64,000 nt of DNA from assembly GCA_032622095.1 (NCBI GenBank), contig CP136066.1, positions 228,102,961 through 228,166,960 of the forward strand, in the 5' to 3' direction. A program made the translations under genes and the position numbers. Positions 3,791 to 63,249 of the stretch are shown piece after piece. The notes under the pieces were generated by a model. It was not told where the DNA came from, made no database searches, and worked only from the letters and a program-made list of their open reading frames with translations. This stretch comes from Siphonodentalium dalli. Its lineage: Eukaryota > Mollusca > Scaphopoda > Gadilida > Siphonodentaliidae. Each line of letters opens with the position of its first letter. Within the stretch, counting starts at the first letter, position 1.

Positions 3791-3857
3791 CCAATGTATT
3801 CTCTTATATATGCGAGTCGACCATAGGTCGCCTCGCATATATAAGAGAATGCATTGG
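3791..3857. repeat. 67-bp hairpin, copy 1
   Basis: Near-perfect palindrome: arm CCAATGTATTCTCTTATATA then TGCGAG, inner stem CGACC/GGTCG, three-base loop, and the complementary arm ending GAATGCATTGG. First of about a dozen copies of this hairpin in the window. Confidence 0.93.
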
Positions 3858-4077
3858 CTTAACAGTTTTTATCATGTTTTTTAAATAAATGTTTCTTACA
3901 ATTTTTAGGACATAAAATAAAAAAACATACATTACCCTGCAGGGAGCCCCACACATATATAGAAGCATATAGAAGAGTGTCGTCTGCTCATGTTTGCCTG
4001 GGGCTCTGTATGGGTGAAATTATAAAATTGTTAAAGAATACAAGAAAACATTATTAAAATTGTAAAACATTGTTAGG

Positions 4078-4144
4078 CCAATGTATTCTCTTATATATGC
4101 GAGGTGACCTATGGTCGACTCGCATATATAAGAGAATGCATTGG
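4078..4144. repeat. 67-bp hairpin, copy 2
   Basis: Same palindrome as at 3791 but in the opposite orientation (loop reads GACCTATGGTC). It forms the inner part of the right arm of the foldback element. Confidence 0.93.
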
Positions 4145-4289
4145 CACAGGGTAAAAATAATCCCGACTTACGACTGGATTTGATATGGCGGGTCACATAT
4201 ATACACCATTGTTACCCAATAGTAGAGTTTTACTTCGTAAATCATTGGGATTTAGAATTAACTGGTTAACCCCAAATTCGCGTACGTAA

Positions 4290-4450
4290 CGCCACAACGA
4301 ACTGTTGCCCGCCCTGAATTAACTGTTGCCCGGTTTGCAATCACAGTCAGCTTTCGTGACGTCACGAGTGAACTGTTGCCCGACCCGAGCGAACTGTTGA
4401 CTGGCTCCGAGCGAACTGTTGACTGGCCCGAACGAACTGTTACATGGTTT
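4290..4450. repeat. Short degenerate tandem repeat
   Basis: Six or seven spaced copies of GAACTGTTG followed by CCCG or ACTGGC, at roughly 18-37 bp spacing. No coding signal. Confidence 0.7.
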
Positions 4451-4582
4451 GCAATTTCCGTTTTGCATTCAGATACATGGCGGTATATTTCAGTTAGTTC
4501 TCATAATTCGAAATAACATTATTAAAGAGTGTGATTAATTAGCAATGACCTGATTATATACAAGTAAATGTATTGGGTAACA

Positions 4583-9850: not shown

Positions 9851-9854
9851 TAGG

Positions 9855-9970
9855 CCAATGAAATTATCTTATATATGTGAGGCTCCCTATGGGAGACTCG
9901 CATATATAAGATAATACATTGGCACAGGGTTTTCCGAAAACACCCAGGAAGCTCCAGTCATGGAAGGGTT
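9855..9970. mobile_element. Hairpin copy 3 with element end CTCCAGTCATGGAAGGG
   Basis: Hairpin at 9855-9922, then CACAGGGTTTTCCGAAAACA and AGGAAGCTCCAGTCATGGAA ending GGGTTA. The same end follows the hairpin near 18439-18569 and, diverged, near 62410-62446. Relative to the main type both arms carry ATTATC for ATTCTC and the inner stem is CTCCC/GGGAG for CGACC/GGTCG, so base changes are paired. Confidence 0.8.
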
Positions 9971-9975: not shown

Positions 9976-10715
9976 GCATGAATAGATAGATACCTTGTGC
10001 ACCCAACTGCCAACATCGTCTCCAATATGGCAGCTGACACTGATGACTGTCGTCTGTTTGAGTCCATGTGAGGCTCCATACATGAGTGTAATTTACACTG
10101 CATGAATATATAGATACCTTGTGCATCCAGGTGACAACATCGTCGCCAATATGGCGGCTTACACGTGCACTTTGTTAACCCTTTATGGAGCCCCAGACAG
10201 AGAGAACAATGCACTGATGACTGTCGTCTGCTTGAGACCCGAGTCCATTTGAGGCTACATGCGGGAGTGTTATTTACACTACATGAATATATAGATACCT
10301 TGTGCATCCAGGTGACAACATCGTCGCCAATATGGCGGCTTACACGTGCACTTTGTTAACCCTTTATGGAGCCCCAGACAGAGAGAACAATGCACTGATG
10401 ACTGTCGTCTGCTTGAGACCCGAGTCCATTTGAGGCTACATACGGGAGTGTTATTTACACTACATGAATAGATAGATAACTTGTGCATCCAACTGACAAC
10501 ATCGTCCCCAATATGATGGCAGCTGACACATGCACTTTGTTAACCCTTTATGGAGCCCCAGACAGAGAGAACAACGCACTGATGACTTCGTCTGCTTGTG
10601 ACCCGAGTCCATTTGAGGCTACATACGGGAGTGTTATTTACACTACATGAATATATAGATACCTTGTGCATCCAGCTGACAACATCGTCCCCAATATGGC
10701 AGCTGACATTTGCAC
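9976..10715. repeat. About 182-bp tandem repeat
   Basis: Four copies (first one internally deleted) with marks TTTACACTACATGAATATAT, CTTGTGCATCCA, ACAACATCGTC, CCAATATGGC, TTAACCCTTTATGGAGCCCC, and CTGATGACTGTCGTCTGCTT. Each full unit includes TTAACCC plus the GGAGCCCCA motif known from mini-elements near 18595 and 19450, so the array may have grown from such an insertion. Confidence 0.9.
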
Positions 10716-15311: not shown

Positions 15312-15371
15312 GTGTCGTGTTATCGAAACCTGAATTTTTTCTTACATTTTTATCATTTGTAATATGTTAAG

Positions 15372-16910
15372 CCAATGCATTCTCTTATATATATGCGAGG
15401 CGACCTATGGTCGACTCGCATATATGAGGGTATCACCACCCCCCCCTTTTCGGTACGGGATTCAGGGTGTTTTGAAGCCGTACACGGGATTCATACCCCC
15501 GAATTAACTGGTATTCGGGTTCAAGCAAAACATCTTGGACGCAGGTATTGATGGCGCAAAGTAATATTTTGTGCTAGTTATCTGTATGAATGAGTGGGTA
15601 GAATAGCTTCTTGTGCATATTCGACCACCATGCCATCATAAACAGAGACGTGGCGACATGCGGGGGGTCTCACCCCCCCCAACTTTGGTCAAAATTTTCA
15701 ACAGTTGGAAATTTCATACCTGCCAAAACATTAGTCGGAAATTTCACACCAACAATAGGTTGAAATGTTCTTGTAGTTTGATTTTCAAACAATTTATTGG
15801 GGGGAATTAATTGTTTTTGGACCAATATTTGCATATATGGTCATCAGTTGGAAATTTTCCAACCTCAGGGGGGTGACAGGTTGGAAATTTCCAACACTTG
15901 GAAATATTGTGATCTGGTCCCTCCCCCGTGGCCAGTCAAAAACTGCTAGTTAATTTAAGAAAACAATATTCTCATACATTTGGTCAACATTGGCATTGGA
16001 ATTGTCATCAGTTGTAAATTTTCCAATCTAAGTGGGGTGTCAGGTTTGAAATTTCCAACTCTAAAAATGCTTGACGCTAGTCTAGATGCTAGGATTTTGC
16101 GATTTTCTTGTTCAGATTACAAAATTTTCGCACACCGGGCTGTGGTCATCAGTTGGAGAATTTTCCAACCTGAGGGGGAGTATGAGGTTTAAAATTTCCA
16201 ACACTATATGAAAGCTTTAGTTGAGGCCAGTCTGGATGCTAGGATTTTCGATTTTCTTGTTCAAATATCAAAATGTTCTCACACCGGCCGAACAAAGATG
16301 GTCAGCTCGGTGTGTCGTGCTCTTGCCCGTAGCCGTGTGCATTTGTATGGAGTTAGACCACTAGATGTTAGGATTTATGCAATGTTTCCAGATGTTTCAG
16401 GTTAAAATATCTGAATGTTCTCATACCGGGAATATAGAACCATCGTTTATGAAGATATAGGATATTAGGCCTAAACACTGAGGTGCAAGGAGGGTGTGCA
16501 AATGGAATTATACAAAACTTGTGTTCGGTCTGATTCTGACTCAAGGAGGAGGGTGCAGTTGGAATTTCCCAAGGTGGACACCCCCCCCAACGGAAACCCT
16601 CTAGCCACATCCCTGATCATAAAGTATCATTAATGGTATCATAACGGCCTCATAACGCGACCGGCATCATAATGTGTCTATGTAACTTCTGCTTGTATCT
16701 GTCTGATATTAAAACAGTCAATTTGTATGTCATTTATCACATATTATTTCTTAACATGTATTCAGGATTCACCCCCCCCCCCCCCAAATTAACTCGTATT
16801 CAGGATTCACCCCCCAAAATTAACTCGTATTCAGGATTCAGGGGGAGGGGGGTGATACCCTCATATATAAGAGAATGCATTGGCACAGGGCCGTTCTGTT
16901 GGGTAAAGGG
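15372..16910. mobile_element. Hairpin element right end (piggyBac-like), split by an insertion
   Basis: The left arm and loop of a 67-bp hairpin lie at 15372-15424 and its right arm resumes at 16864-16883. It then continues CACAGGGCCGTTCTGTTGGG TAAAGGG to TTAA at 16911-16914, the same end as the complete element at 27042-28386. The left terminus of this copy was not found. The TTAA used here corresponds to a TTAA internal to the AGGCCCACTTAATTT family, so the element had landed inside another TTAA element. Confidence 0.8.
15425..16863. mobile_element. Inserted element with TGAGGGTATCACC termini
   Basis: Thirteen-base perfect terminal inverted repeats (TGAGGGTATCACC at 15425, GGTGATACCCTCA ending 16863) next to G/C homopolymer-rich subterminal blocks with GGATTCA and GAATTAACT words. 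Compared with intact hairpins, the flanks show a duplicated TATA, so a 4-bp target duplication is likely. The 1.4-kb interior contains several diverged 130-170-bp subrepeats built on GTTGGAAATTTTCCAACCT, and no transposase. Superfamily unknown. Confidence 0.75.
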
Positions 16911-17576: not shown

Positions 17577-17820
17577 CTTGAACTCATGTTGTGAGCACTT
17601 AATACCTCGATTGTTTAACATCATTGGTTTAGATAACGATACAGATATATGTTCAGATGTTGCGCGGATGTCTGTCCTTTTGTACAGTACCAATACCCAT
17701 GAGAGGCCTTGTTACATTGTGAATGCATATTTTATTTGAGCTTTAAGGTGGTGCACACCTCACACATCATTTAACCTTTTCGTGATGGGAGCTGCGCTGG
17801 CGCAGCTGTAAAGATCATGT

Positions 17821-17889
17821 GCCAGCGTATTCTCTTATATATGTGAAATCTCCTATATGGAGCCTCACATTTATAAGAGAATGCACTGG
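17821..17889. repeat. 67-bp-type hairpin, copy 5
   Basis: Both arms changed together relative to the main type: CCAG for CCAA at the outer end and GTGA for GCGA near the loop, and the inner stem is CTCC/GGAG. A degenerate remnant follows at 17923-17969. Confidence 0.85.
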
Positions 17890-18076
17890 GTTACAAGGTC
17901 ATGGTTGTTAGGCGACTGAATTTACTTATATAATATAAAGAGAGACTCACATAAAAGAGAATGCATTGGCACAGGGTTTCACAAAATTTATCACTCACAA
18001 GTAAGAGGATCTGATATCAATAAATTCTTAAATAACTCCATATTATCACTCACAAGTGGAGCATTAAGACGCTGTG

Positions 18077-18143
18077 CCAATGCACTCTCTTATATATGCG
18101 AGTCGACCATAGGTCGCTTCGCATATATAAGAGATTGCATTGG
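18077..18143. repeat. 67-bp hairpin, copy 7
   Basis: Main-type palindrome with three arm mismatches (GCACTC, GATTGC and TTCGC). It is followed by T-rich DNA with repeated TTTTTCTTACATT words (18150-18365), the usual interior of the hairpin elements. Confidence 0.9.
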
Positions 18144-18388
18144 CCTAACAATTTTTTTTATCAATTTTTCTTATATTATTTAACAATTTTTATCATTTTT
18201 TCTTACATTTTTTTTTAAAATTATTTTTTCTTACATTCTTACATTTTTGATATTTGTCTTACATTATTTAAATTTTTGTTATCATTTTTATCATTATTTC
18301 TTACATTCTTTAACAATTTTTTATAATTTTTGTTTCATTGTTTCTTACATTCTTTACCAATATAAAAAATTATATATAATTTGTTAGG

Positions 18389-18565
18389 CCAATGCATTCT
18401 CTTATATATGCGAGGCGACCCTATAAGAGAATGCATTGACACAGGGTTTTCGCGTGCTTGAGTGAAGGAGAAGATTACTCGATCTTTTCGACCATCCCGG
18501 GCGCTTTGTGTGCAACTACTCTCTCTGTGGGGTTTTCGCAAAAGGAAGCTCCAGTCATGGAAGAG
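18389..18565. mobile_element. Deleted hairpin copy 8 with element end
   Basis: The hairpin (18389-18438) has lost its right inner stem and about 17 bp. It then runs CACAGGGTTTTCGCGTG and about 90 bp unique to this copy, and ends GAAGCTCCAGTCATGGAAGA before TTAA at 18566-18569. Confidence 0.75.
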
Positions 18566-18699
18566 TTAAAGGCCCACTTAATTTTCGAACCCCCATAGAG
18601 AGCCCCACATAGATTGGAGCAGACGACACTTTGTAGTGCATGCTTCCATTTGTTTGATGCTCCCTGTGGGTTAAAGGCCCACTTAATTTTCGAACCCCC
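18566..18699. mobile_element. Mini inverted-repeat element between 29-bp direct repeats
   Basis: TTAAAGGCCCACTTAATTTT plus CGAACCCCC occurs twice (18566-18594 and 18671-18699). Between them lies a short inverted motif CCCATAGAGAGCCCCACA ... GATGCTCCCTGTGGG with GCAGACGACAC. The copy ending at 18670 touches TTAA at 18671. Confidence 0.6.
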
Positions 18700-19248: not shown

Positions 19249-19291
19249 TTAACAGCTCATCACCAACAAAGGATCTTAGTGAAACCCTGTG

Positions 19292-19358
19292 CCAATGCAT
19301 TCTCTTATATATGCGAGTCGACCATAGGTCGCCTCGCATATATAAGATGATGCATTGA
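19292..19358. repeat. 67-bp hairpin, copy 9
   Basis: Main-type palindrome with two changes in the right arm (AAGATGATG, ATTGACC). Preceded by CCCTGTG. Confidence 0.92.
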
Positions 19359-19447
19359 CCTAACAAATTTTATATTATTTTTTATATTTGTTAAAGGATG
19401 TAAGAATACCTGACAGAAGCATCAGAATCAGAATCAGAATGTTTATT

Positions 19448-19528
19448 AACCCGCATGGAGCCTCACACAGATGGAAGTATACACTGCAGAGTGTCGTCTG
19501 CTCCTTATGTGTGGGGCTCTCTATGGGG
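19448..19528. mobile_element. About 80-bp palindromic mini-element
   Basis: TTAA at 19447-19450 opens CCCGCATGGAGCCTCACACA; the right side mirrors it as TGTGTGGGGCTCTCTATGGG GTTAG. Centre carries GTGTCGTCTGCTCC as in relatives near 3960 and 18595. Confidence 0.6.
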
Positions 19529-19548
19529 TTAGTGGGGCTAAGAAAATT

Positions 19549-21515: not shown

Positions 21516-21577
21516 TACATAATTTGAGGCTCAAGTCATTAATGTTCAGCTCCATAGTCAACGTATCACCAATTACC

Positions 21578-21658
21578 TCTCAAAGTCCAAGAACGTTATA
21601 TGTAATCTATAATGATTACCTATGATTACTTATAACGTTCTTGGACTTTGAGAGGTAT
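21578..21658. repeat. 34-bp-arm hairpin
   Basis: TACCTCTCAAAGTCCAAGAA CGTTATA and its exact inverse, around a short AT-rich loop. Probably a foldback MITE. Confidence 0.88.
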
Positions 21659-21814
21659 GTCGTAATTCGTGGTGTTAAATTGTGTCCTCGATTCATATCT
21701 AACCCCGGAATTTATATATATATAAATCTTTCTGGACGGCAGATCATCTTTATTTGATTTTACTTTAAATACAATCTTCCCACAAACTGAGGTACAAAAT
21801 TAAAACATTATGTG

Positions 21815-26132: not shown

Positions 26133-26206
26133 TTTGAATAATTCGAGATGATTATTTAAAATACAAATACGCAAAAATGTTAACTGTTTTGGTATTTTCA
26201 TTACAG

Positions 26207-27041
26207 TTGATCGTCGATAGTCGACGTGAATATGAGGCTACGACAGAGCGCCATCGGGCGACGATTAATGCGTTTTATAATACGCTCAGAGAAACGATTG
26301 CCCGCAACGAAGAAAGAGCACGTGACGACGTGAAGACGAGACGTGTTAGTCATCTTGATTATATGCGAGGTTTCGAGGAACAGAAAGATAACTTAACGAG
26401 AATTGTGAACGAGATATTCGAAACTGTGGGCGCTGTGATTAAACCAGGACTTGTCAACAATGAACTTCAGAATCAGTTGGCGGAAATTCAGGAATCCATT
26501 GCGTCTTGTGAACTCGCCAGGTGCAACTTAGACGATTTGAAAGGAGCCATTGATGGCGACGAATTCGGTTTCCACTGGAGTCAAAACGACATCGACAGGA
26601 TTTCAGATATCTTAGAATCCCTATCACGTGAGAATCATGTCCAAGAGGGCGCGTCGGTGGATTGTATAAAGCGGTCGGTATATTATGACAGTGCAGATGA
26701 TGACTCCGATCAGCCAATCACGGACCTGAGCGACATTCTCCCCGGAACCGTTCTTGATCTTACTTACATAAGCGCTGAACAAGATTCCGATCTCATCCTT
26801 GTGACGTCAGATCCGAATGAACTTGTGCGCATGCGCGATAACGGATTCGGTATGCGCAAAGTCACCCATTATTGCGGCACATACACATCTCCGAACGTAT
26901 GCGTTAGTGACGGGTTCGTCTCGATAGCGTCTTTTTGCGATCATCGAATTGAGATGTATAACGTCAGTGATCTTGAACACGTGAGAACTATCGACGTTGG
27001 AGACGCATTCACGTCATTTGGTTCGTTATCGGGTGCTTTAA
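26207..27041 (+). pseudogene. TRIM-like gene 1, exon 2, 5' part
   Basis: Begins at acceptor TTTCATTACAG|TTGATC, phase 0. It encodes a long alpha-helical stretch (SRREYEATTERHRATINAFY, NEERARDDVKTR), as in TRIM coiled coils, then a beta-rich region (DLILVTSDPN, GFVSIASFCDHRIEMYNVSD, GDAFTSFGSLSGAL) that aligns with the intact paralogue at 44670-45989. Homology stops exactly at TTAA 27038-27041, where a piggyBac-like element enters; downstream the frame runs on for about 12 element-encoded codons before a stop. The remainder of the exon is at 28391-28866. Confidence 0.85.
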
Positions 27042-27163
27042 CCCTTTACCCAACAGAACGCCCAGAAACGCCCAAATGAAGCTTCAACAGCCTAAATTAT
27101 CTTGGGGTCTGTCTCAATAAAACCATACAAATATGGATATCATAGTTACAGTTATGCCCTGTG

Positions 27164-27230
27164 CCAATGCATTCTCTTATATATGCGAGTCGACCATAGG
27201 TCGCCTCGCATATATAAGAGAATGCATTGG
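27164..27230. repeat. 67-bp hairpin, copy 10
   Basis: Perfect outer arms CCAATGCATTCTCTTATATA TGCGAG with inner stem CGACC/GGTCG. Best example of the main type. Confidence 0.95.
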
Positions 27231-27250
27231 CCTAAACAAAATCTTTTTTT

Positions 27251-28195
27251 AAGGACGACCAGCTGGGCCCAGCCCAGCCGCGCATATGTTGCGCAGCAAC
27301 ATATGCGCAGGTCGTCCTTATACTAAGTTCGCTTTCGAACATGGGCGCCGCCATCTTAGGGACATCGCCATCTTGGATTTGAAGGGCCGCCATCTTGAAA
27401 CGTCATTGCAATTAAATTAAAACTACAAAATGTTACTTTTCATATAGCCAACATAACAGTATTCATTGCGTTAAGGCATTACATGCTTTATTCTTTGAAC
27501 AATAATCATTACTTAAATCATAAATATTGTCGACCGGACTCGGGTTGCTATGCCATTCGGGAAATGGTGGAAATTTACGTAAAACTGCAAATTTTCCTTA
27601 GCCACCTCGCGAAAACAACATAATTCATATCGTAAATATCTTGATCGTTTATTAGGCCTATATAACTAAATAAACTTTTCTTTAGTTTAGTAAATTAGTA
27701 GAAGCATGTTCATGTAAACTGTTAGGTTACGTCATATGTTATATCCAAAGCGACGTCATATTGGCACGCGCATTTTCCCGCGAAAGTTATTGACGTTTTG
27801 ACAGCGACGCGACATAGCACACAAAGCAGGCATAATGTTGGCATGGTTCGCATTTTAGGTTTGGTTGGGTTGACGTTTCATAGTGCATGGCTCCGAGTCC
27901 AAGGGTTGTGGAGGCGAGTACAACTAATATTTCATCCAAATTGAGAATGGGCATATACGTGCCAGTCAAAACATGGCTCCGAGGAGCCACGATCGAAAGG
28001 CTGGAAGATACATGTATGAGTACAATATGATAATTATGAGGTAGGCATACAGACCCAACCCCCCTATCACAAGCAACCAACTTCGTGTACGTAATTGGTT
28101 ATAAGAAATATTTATAGTTAATTAAATCTTGACGTTCATATAAGTCAACACATATTAGTCTGAGTAGTGCAGGTCGTGACTGCACGGTCGTCCTT
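27251..28195. mobile_element. Possible nested element with AAGGACGACC ends
   Basis: Starts AAGGACGACC and ends GGTCGTCCTT in T-rich flanks. Near the left end is a second palindrome (GCGCATATGTTGCGC mirrored) closed by GGTCGTCCTT at 27310-27319. 27340-27410 holds three CGCCATCTTRG/A words. Boundaries uncertain because the flanks are homopolymeric. Confidence 0.4.
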
Positions 28196-28292
28196 TTTTA
28201 CATGGATTTCAAAGCCATAATTTCTTGTTTTAACACTTTTTACCATTTTTTCTTACATTCTTTAACAATTTTATAATTTGTAATGTGTTAAG

Positions 28293-28359
28293 CCAATGCA
28301 TTCTCTTATATATGCGAGGCGACCTATGGTCGACTCGCATATATAAGAGAATGCATTGG
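28293..28359. repeat. 67-bp hairpin, copy 11
   Basis: Perfect palindromic arms in the orientation with loop GACCTATGGTC; its outer end leads through CACAGGGC into the element terminus. Confidence 0.95.
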
Positions 28360-28390
28360 CACAGGGCCGTTCTGTTGGGTAAAGGGTTAA

Positions 28391-28866: not shown

Positions 28867-28891
28867 GAAAGAATTACATGTTCACATCTAA

Positions 28892-37984: not shown

Positions 37985-38716
37985 GAAATGGTGGAAATTT
38001 ACGTAAAACTGCAAATTTTCCTTAGCCACCTCGCGAAAACAACATAATTCATATCGTAAATATCTTGATCGTTTATTAGGCCTATATAACTAAATAAACT
38101 TTTCTTTAGTTTAGTAAATTAGTAGAAGCATGTTCATGTAAACTGTTAGGTTACGTCATATGTTATATCCAAAGCGACGTCATATTGGCACGCGCATTTT
38201 CCCGCGAAAGTTATTGACGTTTTGACAGCGACGCGACATAGCACACAAAGCAGGCATAATGTTGGCATGGTTCGCATTTTAGGTTTGGTTGGGTTGACGT
38301 TTCATAGTGCATGGCTCCGAGTCCAAGGGTTGTGGAGGCGAGTACAACTAATATTTCATCCAAATTGAGAATGGGCATATACGTGCCAGTCAAAACATGG
38401 CTCCGAGGAGCCACGATCGAAAGGCTGGAAGATACATGTATGAGTACAATATGATAATTATGAGGTAGGCATACAGACCCAACCCCCCTATCACAAGCAA
38501 CCAACTTCGTGTACGTAATTGGTTATAAGAAATATTTATAGTTAATTAAATCTTGACGTTCATATAAGTCAACACATATTAGTCTGAGTAGTGCAGGTCG
38601 TGACTGCACGGTCGTCCTTTTTTACATGGATTTCAAAGCCATAATTTCTTGTTTTAACACTTTTTACCATTTTTTCTTACATTCTTTAACAATTTTATAA
38701 TTTGTAATGTGTTAAG

Positions 38717-38783
38717 CCAATGCATTCTCTTATATATGCGAGGCGACCTATGGTCGACTCGCATATATAAGAGAATGCATTGG
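38717..38783. repeat. 67-bp hairpin, copy 12
   Basis: Duplicate of 28293-28359, still perfect, followed by the element end CCGTTCTGTTGGGTAAAGGG and TTAA at 38811-38814. Confidence 0.95.
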
Positions 38784-38814
38784 CACAGGGCCGTTCTGTT
38801 GGGTAAAGGGTTAA

Positions 38815-39700: not shown

Positions 39701-39703
39701 CTA

Positions 39704-42014
39704 AACACATAACAAAGATAAGCTGTATGAGTTTTTTGTATGATATAAATGTTGGTGCTGAAATGGACTGTTGTAAATGTATGTTTATCATATACACGCA
39801 TAACTTAGAGTTAGCGTATGTTTATCATACAAACACAAAACGTATCGTGCATCTTAACACGTTTAATTTGACAAGAAACCAAAACAATCTTCAAAACCAA
39901 ATTTGATTGTCGTTTTGTTCAGAACCACATTGGTTAGATATTTGTGACAAAAAGCTCAAAACCTAGTCTGCGTTTGAACACTCATTCCAGTTATTTCTAG
40001 ATTTCACTTTTCATGGCACTGTTCTGTTGAATATACTCGTTCCATAGTTTCTTTTACCAAAATACACAATACTGTAAGCAGGAGGGGGGGGGTAATAATT
40101 AATCTGCAGGAAGGTATGTCGGGCTGTGGGAGGTCCGAGAGGCAAAAAATGCAATTTTTACAACCTCGTGCACATTTATACTAAAGACCGTTTATGCCCA
40201 TGTTTGACATTTGTAACAGTTTAAACATATTATAACTGTAAAAGCACCATATGTATGTTACTGGGACCTCATATGGGCCTTAGTGGAGAAGAAATTAAGC
40301 TATGTCATGATGCAAATGGGATGTTGAGGTGAACACCTTCCTTCCCGACACCCTTTGGAAGTAAATTAAGCTTCGAGAAATGTAAAATTGAAAAAAATAA
40401 ACTTGTCCTGATGTAACTAAAGACATTTAACCCTAGATAATTGTGTTCATGGAACAAACGGTAGCAAATGTCTCAAACATTATCGTGACTATCGATGGCT
40501 TGAAAATAGCTGTCACCGGTGCATCCAACTAATCAGTGAATGATTTACATGTGTATCAACTCAGAGTATCTGTTACTCTCACAACAACATGCAACAACTA
40601 AAGTATGCAAGTCCAGCATAGTGACTGCTTGTCATTTAGTATAATTAAAGTTATCCACTAGACTAACACAAGTGGTATGGAATAAATGCTAGATAAATGA
40701 CTGGTTGACAGACTAATCAGGAAATAGTTAGAAATTATGGAATTGTGTGTATAATGCACAATTACCTAGCGTTGCAGATATTAGCAATTTATAGAATAAT
40801 ATTGGTAAATGTTTTTATTGTCAAAATATATCAACTCTAGTTGAATAGGAGCTTAACAACTGATATGTCATGGATATATCTACAAAATGTCAACAATGAC
40901 TCGAAAGTGAAGACTTAGTTCACTGTCCTGAGATGTTATCAGCTTAAAGGTACGGTTGGCCTTGGCGGTGGGTATCATATGAAAATATCTCCACCCGTCA
41001 AAAACCCATACAAACAGAAAGAACATCAAAATGTAGATAGACTTTGTCCGTATACAAATAAGAAATATCGCATAAACAGTATGTTATTGTCATATGTTTG
41101 ACCATTGTTATGTAAACAAAAGCATAAAAAGTTACTTTTCTGGTGTTTGTTTATATTATGATGGTAAACATAAAGAGCGTTCTTTGTTGGCGAATTCCTG
41201 ATATGGTACTAATAAAGATCGTTTATGCCGTTTGTGTGTGATTAGCCAGTAGCATTGTGCGGTCTTCTGTAACACAATCAGGCTCTTGCTTAGGTAAAAT
41301 ATAGTAGGTCTTTACGATAACATGCTGTTTACGCGATGGTCATGGTATATATGAACGAAACTGTATGCGTTTTAATGTTTTTCTGTTTTCAGTGTTTGGA
41401 ACAAATATGAATATTTTAAACAATTAAGGCCTTTAAAATGTATTACAGCCAAAATAGCAAAAACACATGTTTGGATCACGTTATAGCTTGCATGGGGAAA
41501 TTACATCTCACTGGATATGCAGGAGATATGGTGGGACACTTATAATTTGTTTTTTTGAAAATTGGATGCATATACCTTTCAGTGAAAAACAATTCTAGTA
41601 GTTCTTTTAGTTTGAAACGTTCCATTTTATAAGTTATACCTTATACAGTAAGTTATACTGGTGTTTTGTGCAACTTTCAGCTTTTGGTGGGTTAGTACTG
41701 TATTTGTCCACTTCATAGATTCATTAGAATTTCCATTTGGCAGTGTCGAATTTGACCACCAGGTAGACCAAGCATACTCTCATCACACACTCACCTGGAA
41801 ACTCCAGTACATGATTGCATGTATGTATGTATGTATGTATGTATGTGTGTATGTGGTAGACAAGACTAGTGCCTATCAGTCAGTATTTAAAAAAAACTCT
41901 TCACATTTGCCTGTATTAACAATGTTTCAATTAAAATAGCTTCTGAAACAGATTAAACTGTCATTTGAACTGAAGGAGATAATTTCTCAGTCATAAGAGT
42001 GATATTGACTCTGA
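39704..42014. other. No gene recognised (copy B)
   Basis: Duplicate of 29280-31590. Differs by a T run near 39732 (copy A TTAAT) and one fewer G in the run at 40085. Confidence 0.5.
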
Positions 42015-42764
42015 TTTAGTCATGCAAGAGTAACATCCAAGATGACTGCCGGTGGCCATGTTTTTATCGAACATGTGGGCTGCAGGGTGTGCCGATGGAT
42101 TCAAATTTAAAATCGAAGATGGCTGCTGGCGGCCATGTTTTTGAACGAATTTCATACTAATCGATGGCTCCCATCTAGAGGTCATCCTCGATATCCGTTT
42201 GGAGTTTGGCGATGATCGGATGAGGGATGTGGCCTATACGCCGAGCCCAAGGATTCAGTCATGCAAAGAGTAAAATCCAAGATTGTTGCTGGTGGCCATT
42301 TTTGTATAATCGATGGCTCCCATCTAGAGGTCACCCCGAAGACCCATATCGAGTTTGGTGATCAGATGAGGGTGTGGTCTGAAGGGTGTGCTAAAGGATC
42401 TAGTCATGCAAAGAGTAAAATTCAAGATGGTGGCTGGGGCCATGTTTTTTATTGAAAATCGCTAAAATTCGAAAGCTCCCATTTAGAGGTGATCGTAAAC
42501 AAGCTTGTAAATTTTCAAAACAATTCTCCAATAAATGCGGGCTGCAGGGTGTGCCGATGGATTCAACTTAGAAATCCAAAATGGCTGCCATCGACCATGT
42601 TTATTAAAGAATTTCGGGAAAAATCGATGGCTTCTATCTAGAGGTCACATCGAAGATCCTTATAAAGTTTGGTGATGATCGGATGAGGTATCGTGAGCCA
42701 AAGAAAATTGTTGACGGACGCACGCACGGACGTCAACTCATAGCAATAGCTCAAGCTTTTACAA
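42014..42764. repeat. Dispersed repeat with subrepeats (copy B)
   Basis: Duplicate of 31590-32340. Confidence 0.75.
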
Positions 42765-42827
42765 AGCTAATATAAATTATATTCCTGTTTATTCTGTATG
42801 TGATGGCAGTAGCGAGAGTATACGATT

Positions 42828-43033
42828 ACAGTAATGTCCTAAATAATCGACTCCTTAACCATATCAGAATTATGGGTAACTTTTCAGGATTTAGTCGGAA
42901 ATATGGCTTGTTGCCATTCATTGGAAAGCTCTCAGTGAGTGAATGGCAACAAGCCATATTTCTGACTAAATCCTGACAAGTTATCCATAATTCTGCTGTG
43001 GTTAAGGAGTCGATTATTTAGGGCATTACTGTA
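42828..43033. repeat. Large hairpin (copy B)
   Basis: Duplicate of 32404-32609. Confidence 0.88.
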
Positions 43034-43123
43034 GATTGCTGCCTTATTGCACACTATTGATCTGAAATCTTGATTTCTCAAGGCCAATATGTTTGGGTAT
43101 ATGTGCTAAATCACACACTGGGA

Positions 43124-43236
43124 GCATTTACAGTAAATATGTCCATTGTACACATACAAGTGACTCAGACAGATGTCGCCTTCTTGTGGTAGTGATATAA
43201 CGAACACATGTTTATGTTTCTTATTCTACACTATAT
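43124..43236 (-). pseudogene. Old TRIM-like terminal-exon fragment (copy B)
   Basis: Duplicate of 32700-32812. Confidence 0.55.
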
Positions 43237-43291
43237 ATCAGAAATGTTTTCAGTCCATTAACACTTGTGATTGGACACAATTCTACGTCAT

Positions 43292-43499
43292 CATATGTAT
43301 GCGATGGCAGTGGTCAGACCTGCGTAGCGAGGAGACATAACTTTACATTATGTATGTGATGGCAGTGATCGGCCCAGGGTAGCGAGGAGACAACTTTACA
43401 TTATGTATGTGATGGCAGTGATCATACCTGCGTAGCGAGGAGACAATTTTACATTCTGTATGTGATGGCAGTGATCGGCCCAGGGTAACGAAGGGACAA
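43292..43499. repeat. About 54-bp tandem repeat (copy B)
   Basis: Duplicate of 32868-33075. Confidence 0.9.
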
Positions 43500-43816
43500 T
43501 CCCAGAACTCTGCCTTGTAGTTTGAGAAAGATGAAGAGCAGTTTAGTTTCTCTGAATAATGCAAACGTTGTCAATTGAAAGCAGTAATTTAATGTGAAAA
43601 ATAGATTTATTACATAATTTCGAAAGATTACGAACACGTTTGACTTCAGCAAGAAATTTGTGAACTCGGCTTATTTCCGTCGCCCCGGTGTGCAAAACGT
43701 GTTTACATTAGAAAGCAATGTCGCGCTATGAAAACAAAATCGTGTGCTAAATGGAAAATACGTTTTAAAAAACATACAACGCGAAGCGGCAGAAATGTAA
43801 ACTAAAATGAAATTAA

Positions 43817-44257
43817 AGGTACTCAATCCGATCAGATGGTCACGATATCATCAAGATGCAACAACATTTCTTCAAAATACGCTTTAGTTATCCGAATCGA
43901 TTAATTGCAACGAAATAATGTTATAGTCCACTGTCAACTATGGTATTACATTTCCCAAAACTTGTTATTTATAAACATTTTGTTCAACGAAATATGGCCG
44001 TATTATCACTTGAGTATTCACGAAATTTGGCCGTATTACGACTTGTTTTTAGAGTTATCCACCTTCATCCGTAATTTTGACGGAGACCATCCTTTTGACG
44101 GCGTGTTTCTGGGCCACAAACAATCGAAATAACAAACTTCAAAAATCGATATCGGATCACTGAGCTTTGATGGTTATCCTCGACTCGAATCAAATATTTT
44201 CTACCCCCGAAGCCAAATAAATAGTAATTTAGGTATGTTTAATCGGATTGAGTACCT
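43817..44257. mobile_element. Complete TTAA element, AGGTACTCAATCCGATCAG family (copy B)
   Basis: Duplicate of 33393-33833, including both TTAA. Confidence 0.85.
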
Positions 44258-44450
44258 TTAATGAATGCAGTTTGATAAATGTTTGTGCACACAATCTACA
44301 TTCGCGAAGTTTGGATCACGGATACTCCACCACTATTACAACATCATCCATGTCCCGATCTACATATCAACTGTTTACTAAGCACTGATTCACAATCCAA
44401 GTCCAATTGTTTCGGTCTGTATGATAAACGATAAACGGATAGTGTTTTCA

Positions 44451-44554
44451 GTAAAAGTGACCTTTGTATACATACACGTGACTCCGTTTGTCGCCGCCTT
44501 TTAAGATAACTAACAAGTGGTTATGTTTCTCGTTATGCGCCTAACCATTGACGC
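44451..44554 (-). pseudogene. Second terminal-exon fragment (copy B)
   Basis: Duplicate of 34027-34130. Confidence 0.65.
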
Positions 44555-44625
44555 TTTTCAGCTACAACATCATACATGTACCTGTTCCGATCTACATATC
44601 AAAGGTTTACACAATCCAAGTCCAA

Positions 44626-44631
44626 TTTATT
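44626..44631 (-). terminator. Poly(A) signal candidate of TRIM-like gene 2
   Basis: AATAAA on the minus strand about 40 bp beyond the stop codon at 44670. Confidence 0.5.
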
Positions 44632-44669
44632 CGGTGTATGTGCATGATGAATAGTATATAGACACTTTT

Positions 44670-45989
44670 TCAGTAAATGTGTCCTTTGTACACATACACG
44701 TGAGTATTCTTATGTCTGTCTTCTGAGAGAACCAATAGATGGTTAAGTTCCTCATTATACGCTAGACCACGGACGCCTGTAAGTCCAGTCAGAATTGTTT
44801 CTTTGTGGTTCCCATCCAGATCATAATGTTCGACTGATTTGTCTGTATTGCCACCAAAAGCCACATATAGACTGGAACGCTGTGTGCACATTGCAAATGG
44901 AGAAGTGGGCGTATCTCGTAGTTGTACAGTTTTTAAAGTAGTTTGTAAATCCGCAGAAAGGATCACTAGACATGTCTTGTTGTCATCAGATTGTTGCATT
45001 ATGATAACACGATCTTCAGCCGAAGTTACCGATACATGTAGTGAACTATTTGTAAGAAACGCATGCTTCGATTTGGCCACCACATCAACTGTGTGCGTCA
45101 GCATTCTAATTGTGCTGGGACATGAATAACACACTACGAATCTGTCAGAGAGCACAGCAAATGAAGAAAACTCCCCTCCGACTTCAACAGTCCCGATCGG
45201 CGAGAAATCTTTAAGATTGTACATTGCTATTTGAGTGCCTTTTGTCGACACTGAAACGATTTCACCCTTTACGTGTAATTTATCACCAGAGCACGGATGA
45301 TCAACCTCATACTGTATCGTACCATCCTCGCTTGTCCGGACGAGTCTATATCGATGGTCTTGGTCGTACTGAGTGTATATCTTTTGTTCTATAATGAGAA
45401 TCAGATCCGAGTTCTTCTGGCTGTTGACATATGCCACAGCGGTGAATTCACATGTCACCCGAAATATGGGTTTTCCAATGACATAGGATTTTGAATTTGG
45501 TTCATTAATTTTCTGTAGTCTTAAGAACTCTGTTATCTGTTCATCGTCACCCTGGTTTGCGCCTTCGGAGCAGCTGTTCGTGCTGGAGATTGAATTCAGG
45601 ATATCCGCTATTTTATCAATGTCGGCTCGGCCCCCAATGAATTTCAGATCAGCTACAACAGATTCCTGTGTTGAGGCGCCTAGACTCTGGAGAACATGTT
45701 CTCCAGTCCCTGTAACCTCCTGTATATATGATGTTTGTTGATACAGGTGTTCTGTGTTTGCTCGCCCTGTTTCAGGAGTCTTTAACTGTATCTCTGCCAT
45801 CGCCTCCGTTACATAGCTGATGTCTTGTTCCATTTCCTCGCGGTGTTCTCGTATCTTTTCTTTAACTGATTCCCGCGCTCTCTCCTCGCACTGCGCCATC
45901 ATGTTTTTAAGATCGTCGTAGAATTTGGTTATCTCAGATAGATAGTTATTCTCTATTTCGTCGTAATTATTTCTCCGCTCATCAATAAC
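44670..45989 (-). CDS. TRIM-like gene 2, terminal exon (coiled coil and propeller-like region)
   Basis: Entered at acceptor TTATCACAG|GTTATT, phase 0, matching the phase 0 donor of exon 1 at 48677, so the intron is 2687 bp and the protein 513 residues. Residues about 1-110 of this exon are strongly helical and charged (YDEIENNYLSEITKFYDDLK, CEERARESVKEKIREHREEM), a coiled coil. The rest is built of repeated beta motifs: SDLILIIEQKIYTQY, GEIVSVSTKGTQIAMYNL, FVVCYSCPSTIRML, DRVIIMQQSD, SLYVAFGGN, and NHLLVLSEDR before THVYVYKGHIY. This suggests a beta-propeller like the NHL or WD-like ends of invertebrate TRIM2/3/56-type proteins. Such proteins usually act in the cytoplasm in ubiquitin signalling or immune regulation, but there is no RING here, so ligase activity cannot be assumed. 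Confidence 0.85.
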   Translation of the reverse strand, partial: VIDERRNNYDEIENNYLSEITKFYDDLKNMMAQCEERARESVKEKIREHREEMEQDISYVTEAMAEIQLKTPETGRANTEHLYQQTSYIQEVTGTGEHVLQSLGASTQESVVADLKFIGGRADIDKIADILNSISSTNSCSEGANQGDDEQITEFLRLQKINEPNSKSYVIGKPIFRVTCEFTAVAYVNSQKNSDLILIIEQKIYTQYDQDHRYRLVRTSEDGTIQYEVDHPCSGDKLHVKGEIVSVSTKGTQIAMYNLKDFSPIGTVEVGGEFSSFAVLSDRFVVCYSCPSTIRMLTHTVDVVAKSKHAFLTNSSLHVSVTSAEDRVIIMQQSDDNKTCLVILSADLQTTLKTVQLRDTPTSPFAMCTQRSSLYVAFGGNTDKSVEHYDLDGNHKETILTGLTGVRGLAYNEELNHLLVLSEDRHKNTHVYVYKGHIY

Positions 45990-48676
45990 CTGTGATAACA
46001 ATTGTAGAAAGACATATTAATGTCGCGTTCGTGTTTACCACCAAGAACCATTTAGGTTTGCCCCATGTGACTAGGTTGACCAATGGAAACAAATAATACG
46101 TGAAAATATCCCATAGAGACTGATTTTTGGGGACCCCTAACCCATTTGAAGTCATGAAACCACCACATATTTTCCGAACATTATTCTCTGCTGTTCCAGA
46201 AAGGTAGCAAATTGTGACTCACTTGGTAATATGCTACTCAATCAACTGACAACTAAATGTTATATTCTTTTTGTCCCAGTACCTTATGAGGCATGACAAA
46301 TCATTTTAATGGATGCAGTATGGATTTTGCCAAAAACTTCTGTCCATGTTTTTGAACGGAAATGGGCAGAACGTTGAAACGGAACTGAGATGGATCATAT
46401 GTGGCTAACGAAAAACAGCCGTTAAAGTGACCCAAGTATTCAATAACCATTCCATCCATATACATTGTATATTTCCGGGTAGATCTACCTTTTGTCCAGT
46501 CCCGCGGTCTATATTGAGAGCATATGCCTTCTGTTCATGGTGGGTTCGTGACCTCAAATAGGGTAGGTGGTTCACTAAATCAACGAACAAGAAGTTACAT
46601 CTCGGGTGCCTTGATACCCCCATGGTGAATTGAAACATTGGCAAGACGGAAACCAATGTTAAAAAGATATTAGCTGACAGACAAACATTTTCAAATTAAC
46701 AAAGAGAGATAACTCTTGAACGAAAAATGTGAACAACGTCAATGAACGCTGTTTTGAAAACTCTCCCGATGCGCCGCCGGGGCGATGCCAAACCTGCATA
46801 CCAAATTTCACGAGATCCGATAATCCATAGTTGAGATGTATGAGCGGACGGACGTCTCTATACACACTGAGGGTACCGTATGTGTTTTTTTCCTTATGTG
46901 TTCAATGTGGGTAAAAGTGGAACTAGAGAAAATGTGCGAGAGAATATCCTAAGTGGTTCAGTACAAATATGACAATATCTTAAGTGGTTATTAATTTCCA
47001 ACAACATAGTTAGAATAGTTGCAAACTTATGTGGTCTATTCTGAGTATTTATTTTAATAGTTTTAATGGTGTTGGTTTTGTGACTCCTTGCAGCTGGAAT
47101 TCTTCAAGTGATATGTATGTCCAGGGCCCAGTTGATTGTTTTTACTAAGTGCTAACCACACATGATGGACATATTAAGTTCAAGCTCGGTCTATTTTGTA
47201 CCACACAAGATGGACACCAAGTCCAAGGTCGGTCTATGTTGGACAAAATATGGACGGACGACGCGCGGGTGGTATCATTTTTAGGCTACACACAAACCAC
47301 TTCTAGTCACATTTGAGGGCTCCATAGTAAGTGATGACTTTGCAAAATCTGTCCACTTAAGCCTTCATTCGACACATAAATACCACATAAGATATCAATT
47401 GCGGTCGGACACACGTCGAGAAGGACAGACGGATGGATGGACAGATTGACGCATGTAATTATTTGTCATTCTATTTTGTGTAAAGTACCCCATACCTTCA
47501 ATAACCACCCCATCCCTATAATATAAAGTGTATCTTTCCTCGTAGATCTGCCTTTTGTCCAGACCCGCGGTAATTATTGAGAGCATATATGTTCAGTTCG
47601 TGGTGGTTTCATGGCTTCAAATAGGGTAGGGTTCCAAAAAAACAAACAACGAAAAACAGCGTTTTTATTTGCCGTCCTCTTTTTGCAAAGTGACCCATGT
47701 TTTCAATAACCATTCCGTCCATATAAGTTGTATATTTCCTGGCAGATTTACCTTTTGTCCAGGTAGGGTATGGTTCCCACAAATCACAAATGCGATTTTA
47801 AGCAAATATGGCTATTTGCCATCCGGATGACAAATATTGAAATATACACTACCGCCAAGTCCGCCATAGACGGCATCTTTAGCTTGCCATAATCTAATGC
47901 ACCCCTAACCGTTCTCACTTGGAAAACATGATCAAACCGTTACAAGACTATTACCCGTCGCCGGCTACAATATCATATTGGGCTCAGCGAGAATAAAGGC
48001 CCATTTAATTTTCGAGTCACCGACTATTTTTTATAGTGCCTTATTATACGGTTTTAATAACCATATATGCCATAAAATATGATTAAAGTACTATAATTCA
48101 TCACCATTTGAAACGTCTGTGTCTCAGAAGATGCCCTTAATTGATTTTTAAGTCTCTCCTTATAATCATACACCAGTGTACATTTTAATAGAACATTATT
48201 AACATGAAAAACTTTTCAAAACTACCAAGACAATTGTAAGTAACATATTGTTTAATTCAAACACAGTCTCCGAATAACACGTAGCGTATGATCGGCTTGA
48301 AGTGACGCGTATAAAGTGCAAACTGCAGTTATTTGTTGATTTACCTCGGCACGTTCGTGTAAACCGTATTTTTTCTGAGTCTTACAGGCGCTAATTGTAT
48401 GAATGTAGAGGGTGTGTGATTATTATTTAATCATCTGCATTGTACCAATGATTTAACATATGCGTTTTTTTCTACCAAACGCATTAAATGCGGAAATTTA
48501 TGCTAAACATAAAATGAATTATCGAACAAAGATATTTAGCATTAAGCTTTTGTCGACTATTTCTATATGCACCAGTCTTGTTTATATCTTAGTAATAAGT
48601 ATGTTAACTCTAATACTTATGTCTGGTAATATGTTATAAACCCGTTCATGGCTTGCTATAATTACATGGGGGTTAC
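45990..48676 (-). other. Intron 1 of TRIM-like gene 2
   Basis: GAG|GTAACC donor to TTATCACAG acceptor. It contains the copy B end of the duplication, the diverged repeat at 46164-46389 and a truncated TTAA element at 47995-48139. Confidence 0.75.
47995..48139. mobile_element. Truncated AGGCCCACTTAATTT family element (copy B)
   Basis: Duplicate of 37571-37715. Confidence 0.7.
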
Positions 48677-58694: not shown

Positions 58695-58767
58695 CTGTCT
58701 CAAATTGGCATCGCAAAATTTTATTCGGTGTTACCTAGATCATGCCATGAACCTGTAATTTGGCTAA

Positions 58768-58962
58768 TGCTACGGCGTTAGCCAGAGTAGAGAATCATGG
58801 CATGATCTAGGTGTCACCGAGAAAACTGTACCATTTAGAATGAAAAAAATGTAACGTACAATCACAAAATTGTGGAAAGAGGCACACCACTGGCTGGGGA
58901 AGTCACACACAAAGGCATAAAATCAGCGTTATTGATATTTTTACCAGAAAGTCTCAAATTGG
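58768..58962. repeat. Direct repeat R1, second copy
   Basis: Same sequence as 55893-56078 with a small extra segment (ACACAAAGGCATAAA). The MULE-like element follows at its end, CTCAAATTGG at 58953-58962. Confidence 0.85.
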
Positions 58963-59969: not shown

Positions 59970-59979
59970 CTCAAATTGG

Positions 59980-60330
59980 CATCGCAAAATTGGATTTAGG
60001 GCGACCAAGAAAAGTGCCTCATTCAGAACGAAAAAAATTTAACGTAGAATAGTCAAGTTGTGTAAAGTGGCACACCGTTGGGTGGGGAATTCACAAAGGA
60101 AGGCACTAATTCAGTGTCATGTATATTTTCGACTTGAAAGTGTCCAATGACCATTGCCAAATGGGGCCTGGGTGATGGAATAAAAAGTGAAAAGTTCAGA
60201 ATGAAAAAAATCATATGTAAAATCATGAAGATATGGAACCACGATACCCTTGGGTGCGCAATTGACTCAGGAAGACATATGACAAGGGAAGTCTGGGTCT
60301 TCAGGTTGAAAGTTTGTCATTCCCATCGCT
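59980..60330. repeat. Diverged R1-type tandem repeats
   Basis: Two further units about 160 bp apart: AAAAGTGCCTCATTCAGAAC, AAGTGGCACACCGTTGGGTG and GGAACCACGATACCCTTGGG align with R1. Suggests an old tandem array with units of about 160 bp. Confidence 0.65.
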
Positions 60331-61092
60331 GAATGGGTCGTGGGGGCTAAAACGTCGAAAACGCAGAAAGCCATGTGCGCCGATTCAGCGGCTGGTAAAT
60401 CAAATTAAATCGTATTGGGAACCTAAGAACCAATCCGCGCGGTCATATTATATCATTAGTCGATGACTGCACCGAAGTTATTTGAAAACAATACTCAGTT
60501 TACTTACATTTGATGAAAAACGACAAGAGAAGTTTCGCTGTTGAACAAAAATGTCTGCCGACGTGCAATCTCTTCCGGGTATGGATCACATGACCGGAGA
60601 TCATGTGACCGGTCGAAATGGCGATTGTCCGAGGCCGTCCTTGGTGAGAGTAGCGAGATTGGACGGATGTGGCGTCAAGGGTAACATCACTGTAACAATA
60701 CGTAAATAAATGAAATTAAGTTTACTTGGCCAAATTTCCTGACAGAAAGTCCTATACGAAATCAGGCGACATTAAAATTACGAAAAATTGTCGGGGATGT
60801 GGCTCAATTGTTGCCAATCATTGGAAAGCCCTCCCGAGAGCTTCCCGATGAGTGGTGGCGGGCCATGTTTTCGAGTGGGTCCTGAGGGGTTGCCCATGGG
60901 TCTGCTGTGTTGGGGGTCGAGTAATTAGAACATTACTGTAACAACAATACATTTATTGGTAAAGTGATTACATTGACTGCCAACCACTGATTTATGTTGG
61001 AAACCTCATCCAACTGCACCATCTCTTAAATTTCCTTTCTATTTTTCTCTATACCATACCCAAAGCCAACCCCACACCCCACCAATAACTAA
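60331..61092. other. Foldback relative and LINE upstream region
   Basis: 60755-60950 is a diverged relative of the hairpin at 32404 (GTTGCCAATCATTGGAAAGC, AATTAGAACATTACTGTAAC). The pyrimidine-rich stretch 61010-61085 precedes the LINE start codon and is probably its 5' UTR. Confidence 0.55.
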
Positions 61093-61526
61093 ATGCCAAT
61101 AAAGTATCCATGCTCAACCTGCAAGAAATCTGTAAGAAACAACCAAGATGCTCTAGGATGTGACCTGTGTGACCAGTGGATTCATTTGAAATGCTCTAAG
61201 CTAAATAAAACTGATCTACGAAAACTTGATGAAGACAACACACCTTGGTTCTGCTACCACTGTATTCAAGAAGTCTTCCCCTTCAATCATATTGAAGAAG
61301 AAGCTCTCTTCAAGCTAGCAATATATGACATGAAACAAAATGTCAATCACTTAGATCTGCCAAACATGAAACAACTGCTAACAAACCCCTTTACATTAAA
61401 CAATGATTTTCAAAATGAGTATGAATCAGAAGAAAATGCGAGTTTGTTAGACTACCCAAATTCCTCAAATTATCTATTATTAGAAGAATTCAATGAAAAA
61501 ATTAAACATATTGACAATAGTATAAC
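61093..61526 (+). pseudogene. LINE ORF 5' part: PHD finger, interrupted
   Basis: Met at 61093 opens a frame with a complete C4HC3 PHD finger: C7, C10, C23, C26, H31, C34, C54, C57 (YPCSTCKKSV, LGCDLCDQWIHLKC, PWFCYHC). An acidic linker follows. Several invertebrate CR1/L2-type LINEs start their long ORF in this way. The frame is cut at 61526 by a DNA transposon and resumes at 63250. With the element and a 2-bp duplication (AC) removed, the two halves are in one frame (NSIT joined to ASMIHFNMRS). Confidence 0.75.
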
Positions 61527-63249
61527 CCCTTACCGAAATCATTAGCCATTCTTTAGCACTCAGAAGAGAAGGAATGATGGCTTACTGATGGCTAGTAGTT
61601 TTCAGAGGATATGGATGGCTAATGCAAAATTTAGCCATCGAGGCTAGGTGATGGCTAGATGATGGCTTATTAGCCATCGCTTAGCCCTCCTATAGGCCGA
61701 AATATTTAAATGAGCTAAGCCATCGCTTAGCCCTCGATGGATGGATGGCTAGTAGGCCGATGGCTAGTAGGCCGATGGCTAGTACACTACTGATGGCTAG
61801 TAGGCCGATGGCTAGTAAGCCGATGGCTAGTAGGCCGATGGCTAGTAAGCCGATGGCTAGTAGGCCGATGGCTAGTAGACCGATGGCTAGTAAGCCATCG
61901 GATTGTTAGCCCTGGACATTTAGTGATGGCTATGTTATATAACTTGCTTCAGGAGGAATAACTCTTTGGCATCATCTATTTGAGAATGAATTATCTGTAA
62001 AATAATATGTTATATCATAAAAATAATTTTTAACAACATATTTAACAATGTCCATTATTTTTGTTATCTTTTGCCAAGTTTTCATCATAAATACAGTGGA
62101 AACGATTTGCAATTGTATCACTGGACACCCGGACTGCATGCTATCTGGAATCATGCAACATCTTCACATTAGGCTGGGCCAGCCAAAGATTTCTGCAGAT
62201 TTTTGTCAAAATTCAAAAGAAAATAGTATGGTCAACTTCAAGATAAATCTTTAACCCTTCCAATATGAGAACTATATATGCTGGTGCAGCATTAAAGAAC
62301 CTGGTTCCAGCTGAATTCTCTTATATATGTGAGTTTGCCATCTATAGGGATCAAGCCTTATATAAGAGAATTTACTGGCTAGCTGGAGAATTGCATTGGT
62401 ACAGGATTTTCAAAAAATTTCAAGAAGCTCCCATTGGAATGGTTAAATATGAATATGTTTTTTTCAAGATGTTTAATGTGTCATATCATGCCCAATAAAT
62501 TAGAAAATATAGTGCTGAGGATTGTACTTACCAATTTCCAGATTAATTTGTATATACATGTATCTTAGTGGCAGCAGGATATTTTCTCAGAATCTCAGGC
62601 AGAATGTTTGATAAACATGCGGATTTCTGAGAGTTATTTCACAACTTTTAAAATTAGCAGGCTCAGCTATCTTGAAGCCATTACAGTTCTAGTCCAATGA
62701 ATCTCAACTAAAGAAATCACAAGTTTGTAAGACTGCTAAGAACATAAGTGTAAAAAAAACTGGAACAACAAACTTGAGAGCAGTGAATATAGACTAGCAG
62801 TTACAATTCAAATGTTGTTGAGTAAAATATCCCAGGATGCATTTATGCAGCCTCTATCTGGTTGGACCAACATATGGCAGCCATATGTCAGGTCAATGGC
62901 AGCTAGTCTCAGGAGAGAAGGTCTCCTAACCATTAATATGACTTTGGTGAAGGCTAATAACATTCGAATGTTTAAACTCTCCAGTCTGATGGTTATCAAA
63001 TAAATTCTTAACCACCAGTAATGATGGCTAGTGAATATAATTCCATGTTGTTAGCCATCGACTAACCATCACCTTAGCCATCACCAGAAATTCTTCCTGA
63101 TTGGATGGCTACCTAAGCCATCACACCCCTTCTTATTCTTCATGAGTGCTAATATAACTATAGTGATGGTTTATCTTAGCCATCATTGGTCTCTGATGGC
63201 TAAGTGAGGGCTTAGGGATTGCTTAATAAGCCATTCTGTTCGGTAAGGG
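61527..63249. mobile_element. DNA transposon inserted in the LINE, CCCTTACCGAA ends
   Basis: Terminal inverted repeats CCCTTACCGAA (61527) and TTCGGTAAGGG (ending 63249), followed inward by GCCATT/AATGGC words. AC on both sides suggests a 2-bp target duplication. Subterminal blocks are crowded with GATGGCTAGTAGGCC repeats (61740-61900, 15-bp spacing) and TTAGCCATC words (63050-63230). No transposase frame. A smaller TTAA element lies inside at 62255-62442. Superfamily not assigned. Confidence 0.7.
62255..62442. mobile_element. 188-bp TTAA mini-element with hairpin
   Basis: TTAA at 62251-62254 and 62443-62446. Ends CCCTTCCAATATG and CCATTGGAATGG. Inside is a diverged form of the window-wide hairpin (CTGAATTCTCTTATATATGT ... 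CCTTATATAAGAGAATTTAC), then CAGGATTTTCAAAAAATTTC and AAGAAGCTCCC, the counterpart of the ends at 9931 and 18440. Practically nothing but termini plus hairpin. Confidence 0.78.

Follow-up and report, generated by a model that had tools for sequence, protein, structure and literature searches.

We analysed a 64-kb window of the scaphopod Siphonodentalium dalli (contig CP136066.1, positions 228,102,961 to 228,166,960, 64,000 nucleotides), and all counts reported here refer to this one stretch of DNA. The window carries repeated copies of a 67-bp palindrome that lies a short distance inside the ends of several small elements, some of which are bordered by TTAA. In its intact form the palindrome consists of GCCAATGCATTCTCTTATATATGCGAGTCGACC, the loop ATA and GGTCGCCTCGCATATATAAGAGAATGCATTGGC (33 + 3 + 33 bases) and contains one internal T.C mismatch. 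An earlier note on this sequence had listed about a dozen copies with a long stem. Palindrome sequence was present at all 12 places (3791, 4078, 9855, 15372, 17821, 18077, 18389, 19292, 27164, 28293, 38717 and 62307, the positions by which we name the copies), but the stem was not intact in all of them: 15372 is split, 18389 is missing its loop and the inward half of an arm's stem sequence in part, and 62307 retains the outer and middle stem with the inner stem broken up. Including one additional decayed copy at 17903-17978, the 13 palindromes stand for about eight elements and one duplicate. The coordinates are given in Table 1.

Table 1. Palindrome copies and the elements that carry them, in positions of the window.
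Feature	Position	Strand	Remarks
Foldback element E1	3735..4200	.	GTGACCCGCC ends; 150-nt arms, 91%; two inverted palindromes
Palindrome in E1	3790..3858	+	
Palindrome in E1	4077..4145	-	
Palindrome, CTCCC subtype	9854..9923	-	three paired changes; right tip CCCTTCCATGACTGGAGCTTCC beside TTAC at 9969, 45 bp off
Palindrome, split	15371..16884	-	split by nested element 15426-16862; right tip TTAACCCTTTACCCAACAGAACGG ends 16914, 26 bp from stem
Element E3	17771..17978	.	tip TTAACCTTTTCGTGATGGGAGC; palindrome 17821-17889(+) 46 bp in; decayed copy 17903-17978(-); right tip not found
Palindrome, inferred left half of E4	18076..18144	+	left tip not found
Palindrome, inferred right half of E4	18379..18448	-	lacks inner part of one arm; tip TTAACTCTTCCATGACTGGAGCTTCC ends 18569
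Palindrome	19291..19359	+	partner and tip not found
Element E6, complete	27038..28390	.	TTAA + CCCTTTACCCAACAGAACG ... CGTTCTGTTGGGTAAAGGG + TTAA; sits in reading frame; nested element ~27251-28195
Palindrome, 33+3+33	27163..27231	+	121 bp from left TTAA of E6
Palindrome, letters as 27163-27231	28292..28360	-	26 bp from right TTAA of E6
Palindrome	38716..38784	-	tandem duplicate of 28292 copy, not independent
Element E7, 196 bp	62251..62446	.	TTAACCCTTCCAATATGAGAAC ... GCTCCCATTGGAATGGTTAA; TTAA both ends
Palindrome in E7	62306-62379	+	
Half arm in E7	~62385-62406	-	

For the detection of copies we built a covariance model from 9 of them and ran it with the filters off. All 12 listed places were matched at E<=2.6e-10, 9 of these by construction as they are members of the model; the independent matches are 38717, 18389, 15372 and the decayed copy at 17903-17978 (E=4.8e-5). 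Three further matches with E values of 1e-6 or better (32453, 42877 and 21567) were discarded, since they scored nearly equally on both strands and by eye are unrelated hairpins. The other matches outside the module all had E>=0.03. A gap-free palindrome scan recovered 8 of the 12 listed copies together with one unrelated palindrome at 58725-58820, and the same scan found no palindrome in 6 first-order Markov resamplings, even with the threshold lowered. DNA folding was computed for 8 copies, a set that excluded 3791 and 4078. Six of them gave z scores of -8.2 to -15.6, 62307 gave -3.9 and the copy at 17903 showed no fold signal (+0.3). The exact arm and stem patterns had no match in viral or prokaryotic contigs, collections which say little here. 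The window also holds other long hairpins whose sequence is apparently unrelated to the palindrome, at 32403-32609, 42827-43033, 21561-21670 and 58720-58825 (arms of 94, 94, 47 and 51 nt, respectively); the first two are duplicates of one another.

Before the alignment each copy was oriented manually. For seven of them (3791, 4078, 9855, 18077, 19292, 27164 and 28293) the flanks alone give the orientation, with CCCTGTG on the outer and CCTAACA on the inner side apart from small departures, and the ATA loop has a single polarity in these seven. In 17821 and 62307 the flanks have diverged further and the loop was used in part to orient these two copies, therefore their loop polarity is no independent evidence. 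For the nine copies in the model the forward score was 31-39 bits above the reverse score, for 18389 the difference was 22 bits and for 15372 it was 16 bits, under a model that presupposes this orientation. The 3791 and 4078 types turned out to be the same sequence in opposite orientations and not variants of each other. The copy at 38717 repeats 28293: it lies within a tandem duplication of ~10.4 kb (27551-38000 / 37975-48424), two segments of which are 99.5% and 99.6% identical. The duplication is recent or reflects an unresolved haplotype, and its left edge falls inside the element 27038-28390. The copy at 15372 is not diverged. Its stem is interrupted by the element 15426-16862 and the remainder of the stem follows at 16863-16884; with the nested element removed the palindrome is complete except for two extra bases. 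This nested element is 1.4 kb long, has GAGGGTATCACC ends and is bordered on both sides by ATATAT, an apparent target duplication. Two inverted palindrome copies per element were counted in four elements, in two of which (18077/18389 and 17821/17903) the pairing as two ends of one element was inferred from inverted orientation and distance. We rejected the idea that the palindrome inserts on its own, as by eye no target duplication surrounds it in the oriented flanks.

Both ends of the elements at 27038-28390 and 62251-62446 are flanked by TTAA. One TTAA end each was found at 16914, 17771 and 18569, and the element carrying 9855 ends at TTAC. Joining the flanks of E6 at a single TTAA restored a frame of 459 aa, which aligned to the paralogue at 34246-35592(-) with 123 of 458 columns identical (E=9e-32). 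The alignment of this empty-site frame runs through the junction and E6 is thus a clean, precise TTAA insertion. The tips begin with CCCT at both ends of E6 and at one end each of E7, the 9855 element and the element ending at 16914, and with CCTT at 17771; the opposite end of E7, with CCAT, and the tip at 18569, with CTCT, depart from CC[C/T]T. By eye the CCCTTCC-type tips (9855, 17771, 18569 and 62251) are mutually alike and the CCCTTTACCC tips are unlike them; both types are of the kind known from piggyBac. The distance from tip to palindrome was 121 and 26 bp in E6, 46 bp at 17771, 52 bp at 62251, 45 bp at 9855, 26 bp at 16914 and 125 bp at 18569, so that the palindrome sits 26-125 bp inside all seven tips measured. 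Between the last of these tips and its palindrome (18389) we noted a direct GGGTTTTCGC repeat, 86 bp apart (18444-18539); an insertion that duplicated 9-10 bp of its target thus seems to lie between them. The interior of E6 apparently holds a further element bounded by AAGGACGACC and GGTCGTCCTT, beside T runs (27251-27319 and 28150-28195); by eye both of its ends can form hairpins.

The covariance model and the identity, paired-change and covariation statistics are based on 9 of the 13 copies; the duplicate 38717, the split copy 15372, 18389 with its deleted arm and the decayed copy 17903 were excluded. The mean identity of the stem-loop was 84% across the 36 non-independent pairs. For the 50-bp flanks we observed only 36% on the outside and 37% on the inside, compared to shuffled values of 31-33%, with 33% and 32% for shuffled pairs of the two flanks and a maximum of 48% among the shuffled pairs. 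Exceptions were the foldback ends (94% outside), the CCCTTCC-type elements (mutually 43-58% outside) and some inner flanks (50-60%). Within the palindrome the arm middle, pairs 13-23, is the least variable part: these 22 of the 64 positions hold 2 of the 25 changed sites (P=0.0003, in a test on three diverged copies and for a block chosen after seeing the data).

The paired changes reported earlier for 9855 and 17821 are both present. With the most frequent sequence as reference, we counted 3 matched pair changes in 9855 next to 2 pairs changed in other ways (P=0.0003 under random placement), and for 17821 the numbers are 4 and 6 (P=0.0006). Across the alignment both sides had changed in 6 pairs, a number reached by 8 of 500 shuffles, and the observed covariation score was reached by none of the 500. 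When the structure was slid along the alignment all slid versions scored below the actual pairing. Both controls ignore the relatedness of the copies. The picture is different for the near-standard copies 3791, 4078, 18077 and 19292, where 0 of 9 stem substitutions are paired, as against 18 of 42 substitutions in matched pairs for the three diverged copies (Fisher test 0.013, which treats the substitutions as independent although they are not). The T.C mismatch lies at a distance of six pairs from the loop and was retained in all 9 aligned copies, and the 21 single-side changes comprise 6 G.T, 6 A.C and 9 other mispairs.

We read the palindrome as a module with two-fold symmetry that binds protein and lies subterminally in non-autonomous elements of piggyBac type, i.e. 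miniature inverted-repeat transposable elements (MITEs), and we give this reading an even chance of being correct. It is favoured because of the TTAA empty site, the conservation of the module beyond that of its flanks and the excess of paired changes over random placement. The unpaired private changes, the lack of a G.T excess and the conserved arm middles suggest a duplex site that is read from both arms. By analogy with the cysteine-rich domain (CRD) of piggyBac and piggyBat, the palindrome would be a candidate site for a transposase binding as a dimer. Source elements that lose the symmetry would then stop moving, only changes matched in both arms would enter new subfamilies, and after insertion the copies would decay one arm at a time. 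The previous suggestion that the fold matters would thus hold in the sense that two-fold symmetry matters, consistent with its docking option, and not in the sense of an RNA fold, as G.T and A.C mispairs are equally frequent (6 each). A long shared palindrome that has an inner and an outer side and differs between subfamilies by paired changes offers a concrete candidate for a recognition module common to MITEs with different tips. Furthermore, setting the paired changes of subfamilies against the unpaired changes private to single copies provides a simple test of selection versus homogenisation that could be used in any genome.

Several results weigh against a docking module. For 62307 we counted 2 matched pair changes and 11 others, which is not above chance (P=0.19), so the claim that the arms change together applies to the subtypes of 9855 and 17821 and not to this copy. 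Pairs 30 and 31 changed in both 9855 and 17821, and pair 5 in both 17821 and 62307; we therefore count about five paired events, confined to three subtypes, and the tests against chance take no account of ancestry. The 12 further pair types are unremarkable (68 of 500 shuffles reach that number), and according to the DNA folding the stem is gone from the second palindrome of E3, at 17903. No TTAA was found at the GTGACCCGCC ends of the foldback 3735-4200, though the same palindrome module lies inside it, and its membership among the TTAA elements is for this reason not established. The hairpin had been placed inside at least three kinds of element end; the ends do differ and two of the kinds are TTAA/CCC types, but the third is this foldback. 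A comparison of all 24 stop-to-stop frames of at least 110 aa with Pfam, which did not extend to shorter frames, gave no transposase match; weak matches for frames at 2603-3155 fall inside a 48-bp tandem repeat and were taken as chance. Finally, the length of the palindrome is 3.5 times the 19 bp known from piggyBac.

Symmetry could also arise without function if template switching in replication (quasipalindrome correction) homogenises the arms. Such switching has been documented in yeast for short inverted repeats (PMC8604942), and pairs 30 and 31, which are neighbours, may have changed en bloc. As a routine process, however, it is expected to produce paired private changes, to remove the T.C mismatch and to invert the loop. 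The nine unpaired substitutions of the four near-standard copies, the mismatch kept in every aligned copy and the absence of loop inversions in the seven flank-oriented copies all argue against this, and routine homogenisation by foldback repair, which the earlier note had offered as its alternative, is therefore disfavoured. Rare template switching in the source lineages may still have occurred, though as an explanation of the symmetry we consider it unlikely. A further possibility is passive descent from one ancestral palindromic element whose tips were swapped by recombination or nesting, with the paired changes as inherited accidents. The small number of subtypes and the similarity of certain inner flanks (0.50-0.60) are in line with it, and so is the fact that flanks like CCCTGTG and CCTAACA recur, as does the T.C mismatch. 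Against this, two of the three diverged copies have more paired changes than random placement would give, and the module has been preserved between flanks that are now close to noise level, which makes simple inheritance rather improbable in our view.

The fold itself could be the functional form, either as a transcribed hairpin yielding small RNAs or as an extruded DNA cruciform. The DNA folding is strong, with z scores down to -15.6. On the other hand, RNA would tolerate G.T mispairs but these are not more frequent than A.C mispairs (6 and 6), a search of the window against Rfam gave 0 matches at the gathering threshold, and 62307 retains the arm middles without the inner stem. We regard a functional fold as quite improbable. 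The reading as a two-sided docking module can be carried one step further: the tips would be interchangeable and the palindrome would serve as the identity tag, so that one transposase (or a host dimer) reads both arms and mobilises families with unrelated terminal inverted repeats (TIRs). This extension is tentative and in our view unlikely; if true, the palindrome evolves by coupled changes of the two arms.

Among known systems the closest case are the CMITEs of the coral Acropora, piggyBac/TTAA MITEs in which an internal region of 75 bases is more conserved across families than the TIRs; the authors suggested a role of this region in transposition and a possible cross-mobilisation, and left its origin and role open (PMC2872659). 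Like the elements described here, CMITEs are TTAA-flanked, CC[C/T]T-tipped MITEs of piggyBac type with a conserved interior despite differing TIRs. By description they differ in being ~100 bp long with one internal region, and the text examined uses none of the terms 'palindrome', 'hairpin' and 'secondary structure'. In piggyBac a palindrome-like internal repeat of 19 bp has been shown by structure to be the site of a CRD dimer (PMC7351741, PMC11707139). The TTAA target, the palindromic repeat inside the tip and the asymmetry between the ends (121 versus 26 bp in E6) are shared, whereas the present palindrome has 67 bp and is a putative binding site. The imperfect end palindromes of piggyBat (P motifs) are bound by two CRDs and the DNA is bent (PMC11707139, PMC13405395). 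They likewise lie inside the element end but are short (the innermost at bp 107-120); the left end has three of them and the right end lacks them. The statement that no named piggyBac family has this trait is therefore qualified, given the shorter, CRD-dimer-bound palindromes of piggyBac and piggyBat and the conserved internal region of CMITEs. We would class the elements described here as a variant of the CMITE type, in which the palindrome far exceeds that of piggyBac in length.

Palindromic MITE-like elements as such are already known. In Anopheles gambiae six whole MITE-like elements are palindromic repeats, and further cases are cited from C. elegans, Drosophila and mariner (PMC3212995). 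These elements resemble ours in having palindromic repeats within MITE-like elements; they are wholly palindromic, and the available text describes no module common to different tips. Kolobok elements, which are widespread in animals, share the TTAA target duplication and have 5'-RR termini (PMC9587614); we rejected a Kolobok identity as such termini are required and the tips here begin with CC or CT. No case of a 67-bp palindrome was described in the titles and abstract openings examined, and six sequence strings searched in literature text gave no match.

Two further groups of sequences were noted in the window. Paralogous frames of ~450 aa lie at 34246-35592(-), 44670-46016(-) and 26138-28866, without a Pfam match; we presume a resemblance to TRIM-like proteins. 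Small elements with GGGAGCCCC-like ends were observed at 3930-4020, 10175-10420, 18590-18672 and 19445-19533. They have an internal GTGTCGTCTGC motif in common, which occurs at 5 places with at most one mismatch compared to 0.28 expected, and are perhaps a second MITE group with a common core.

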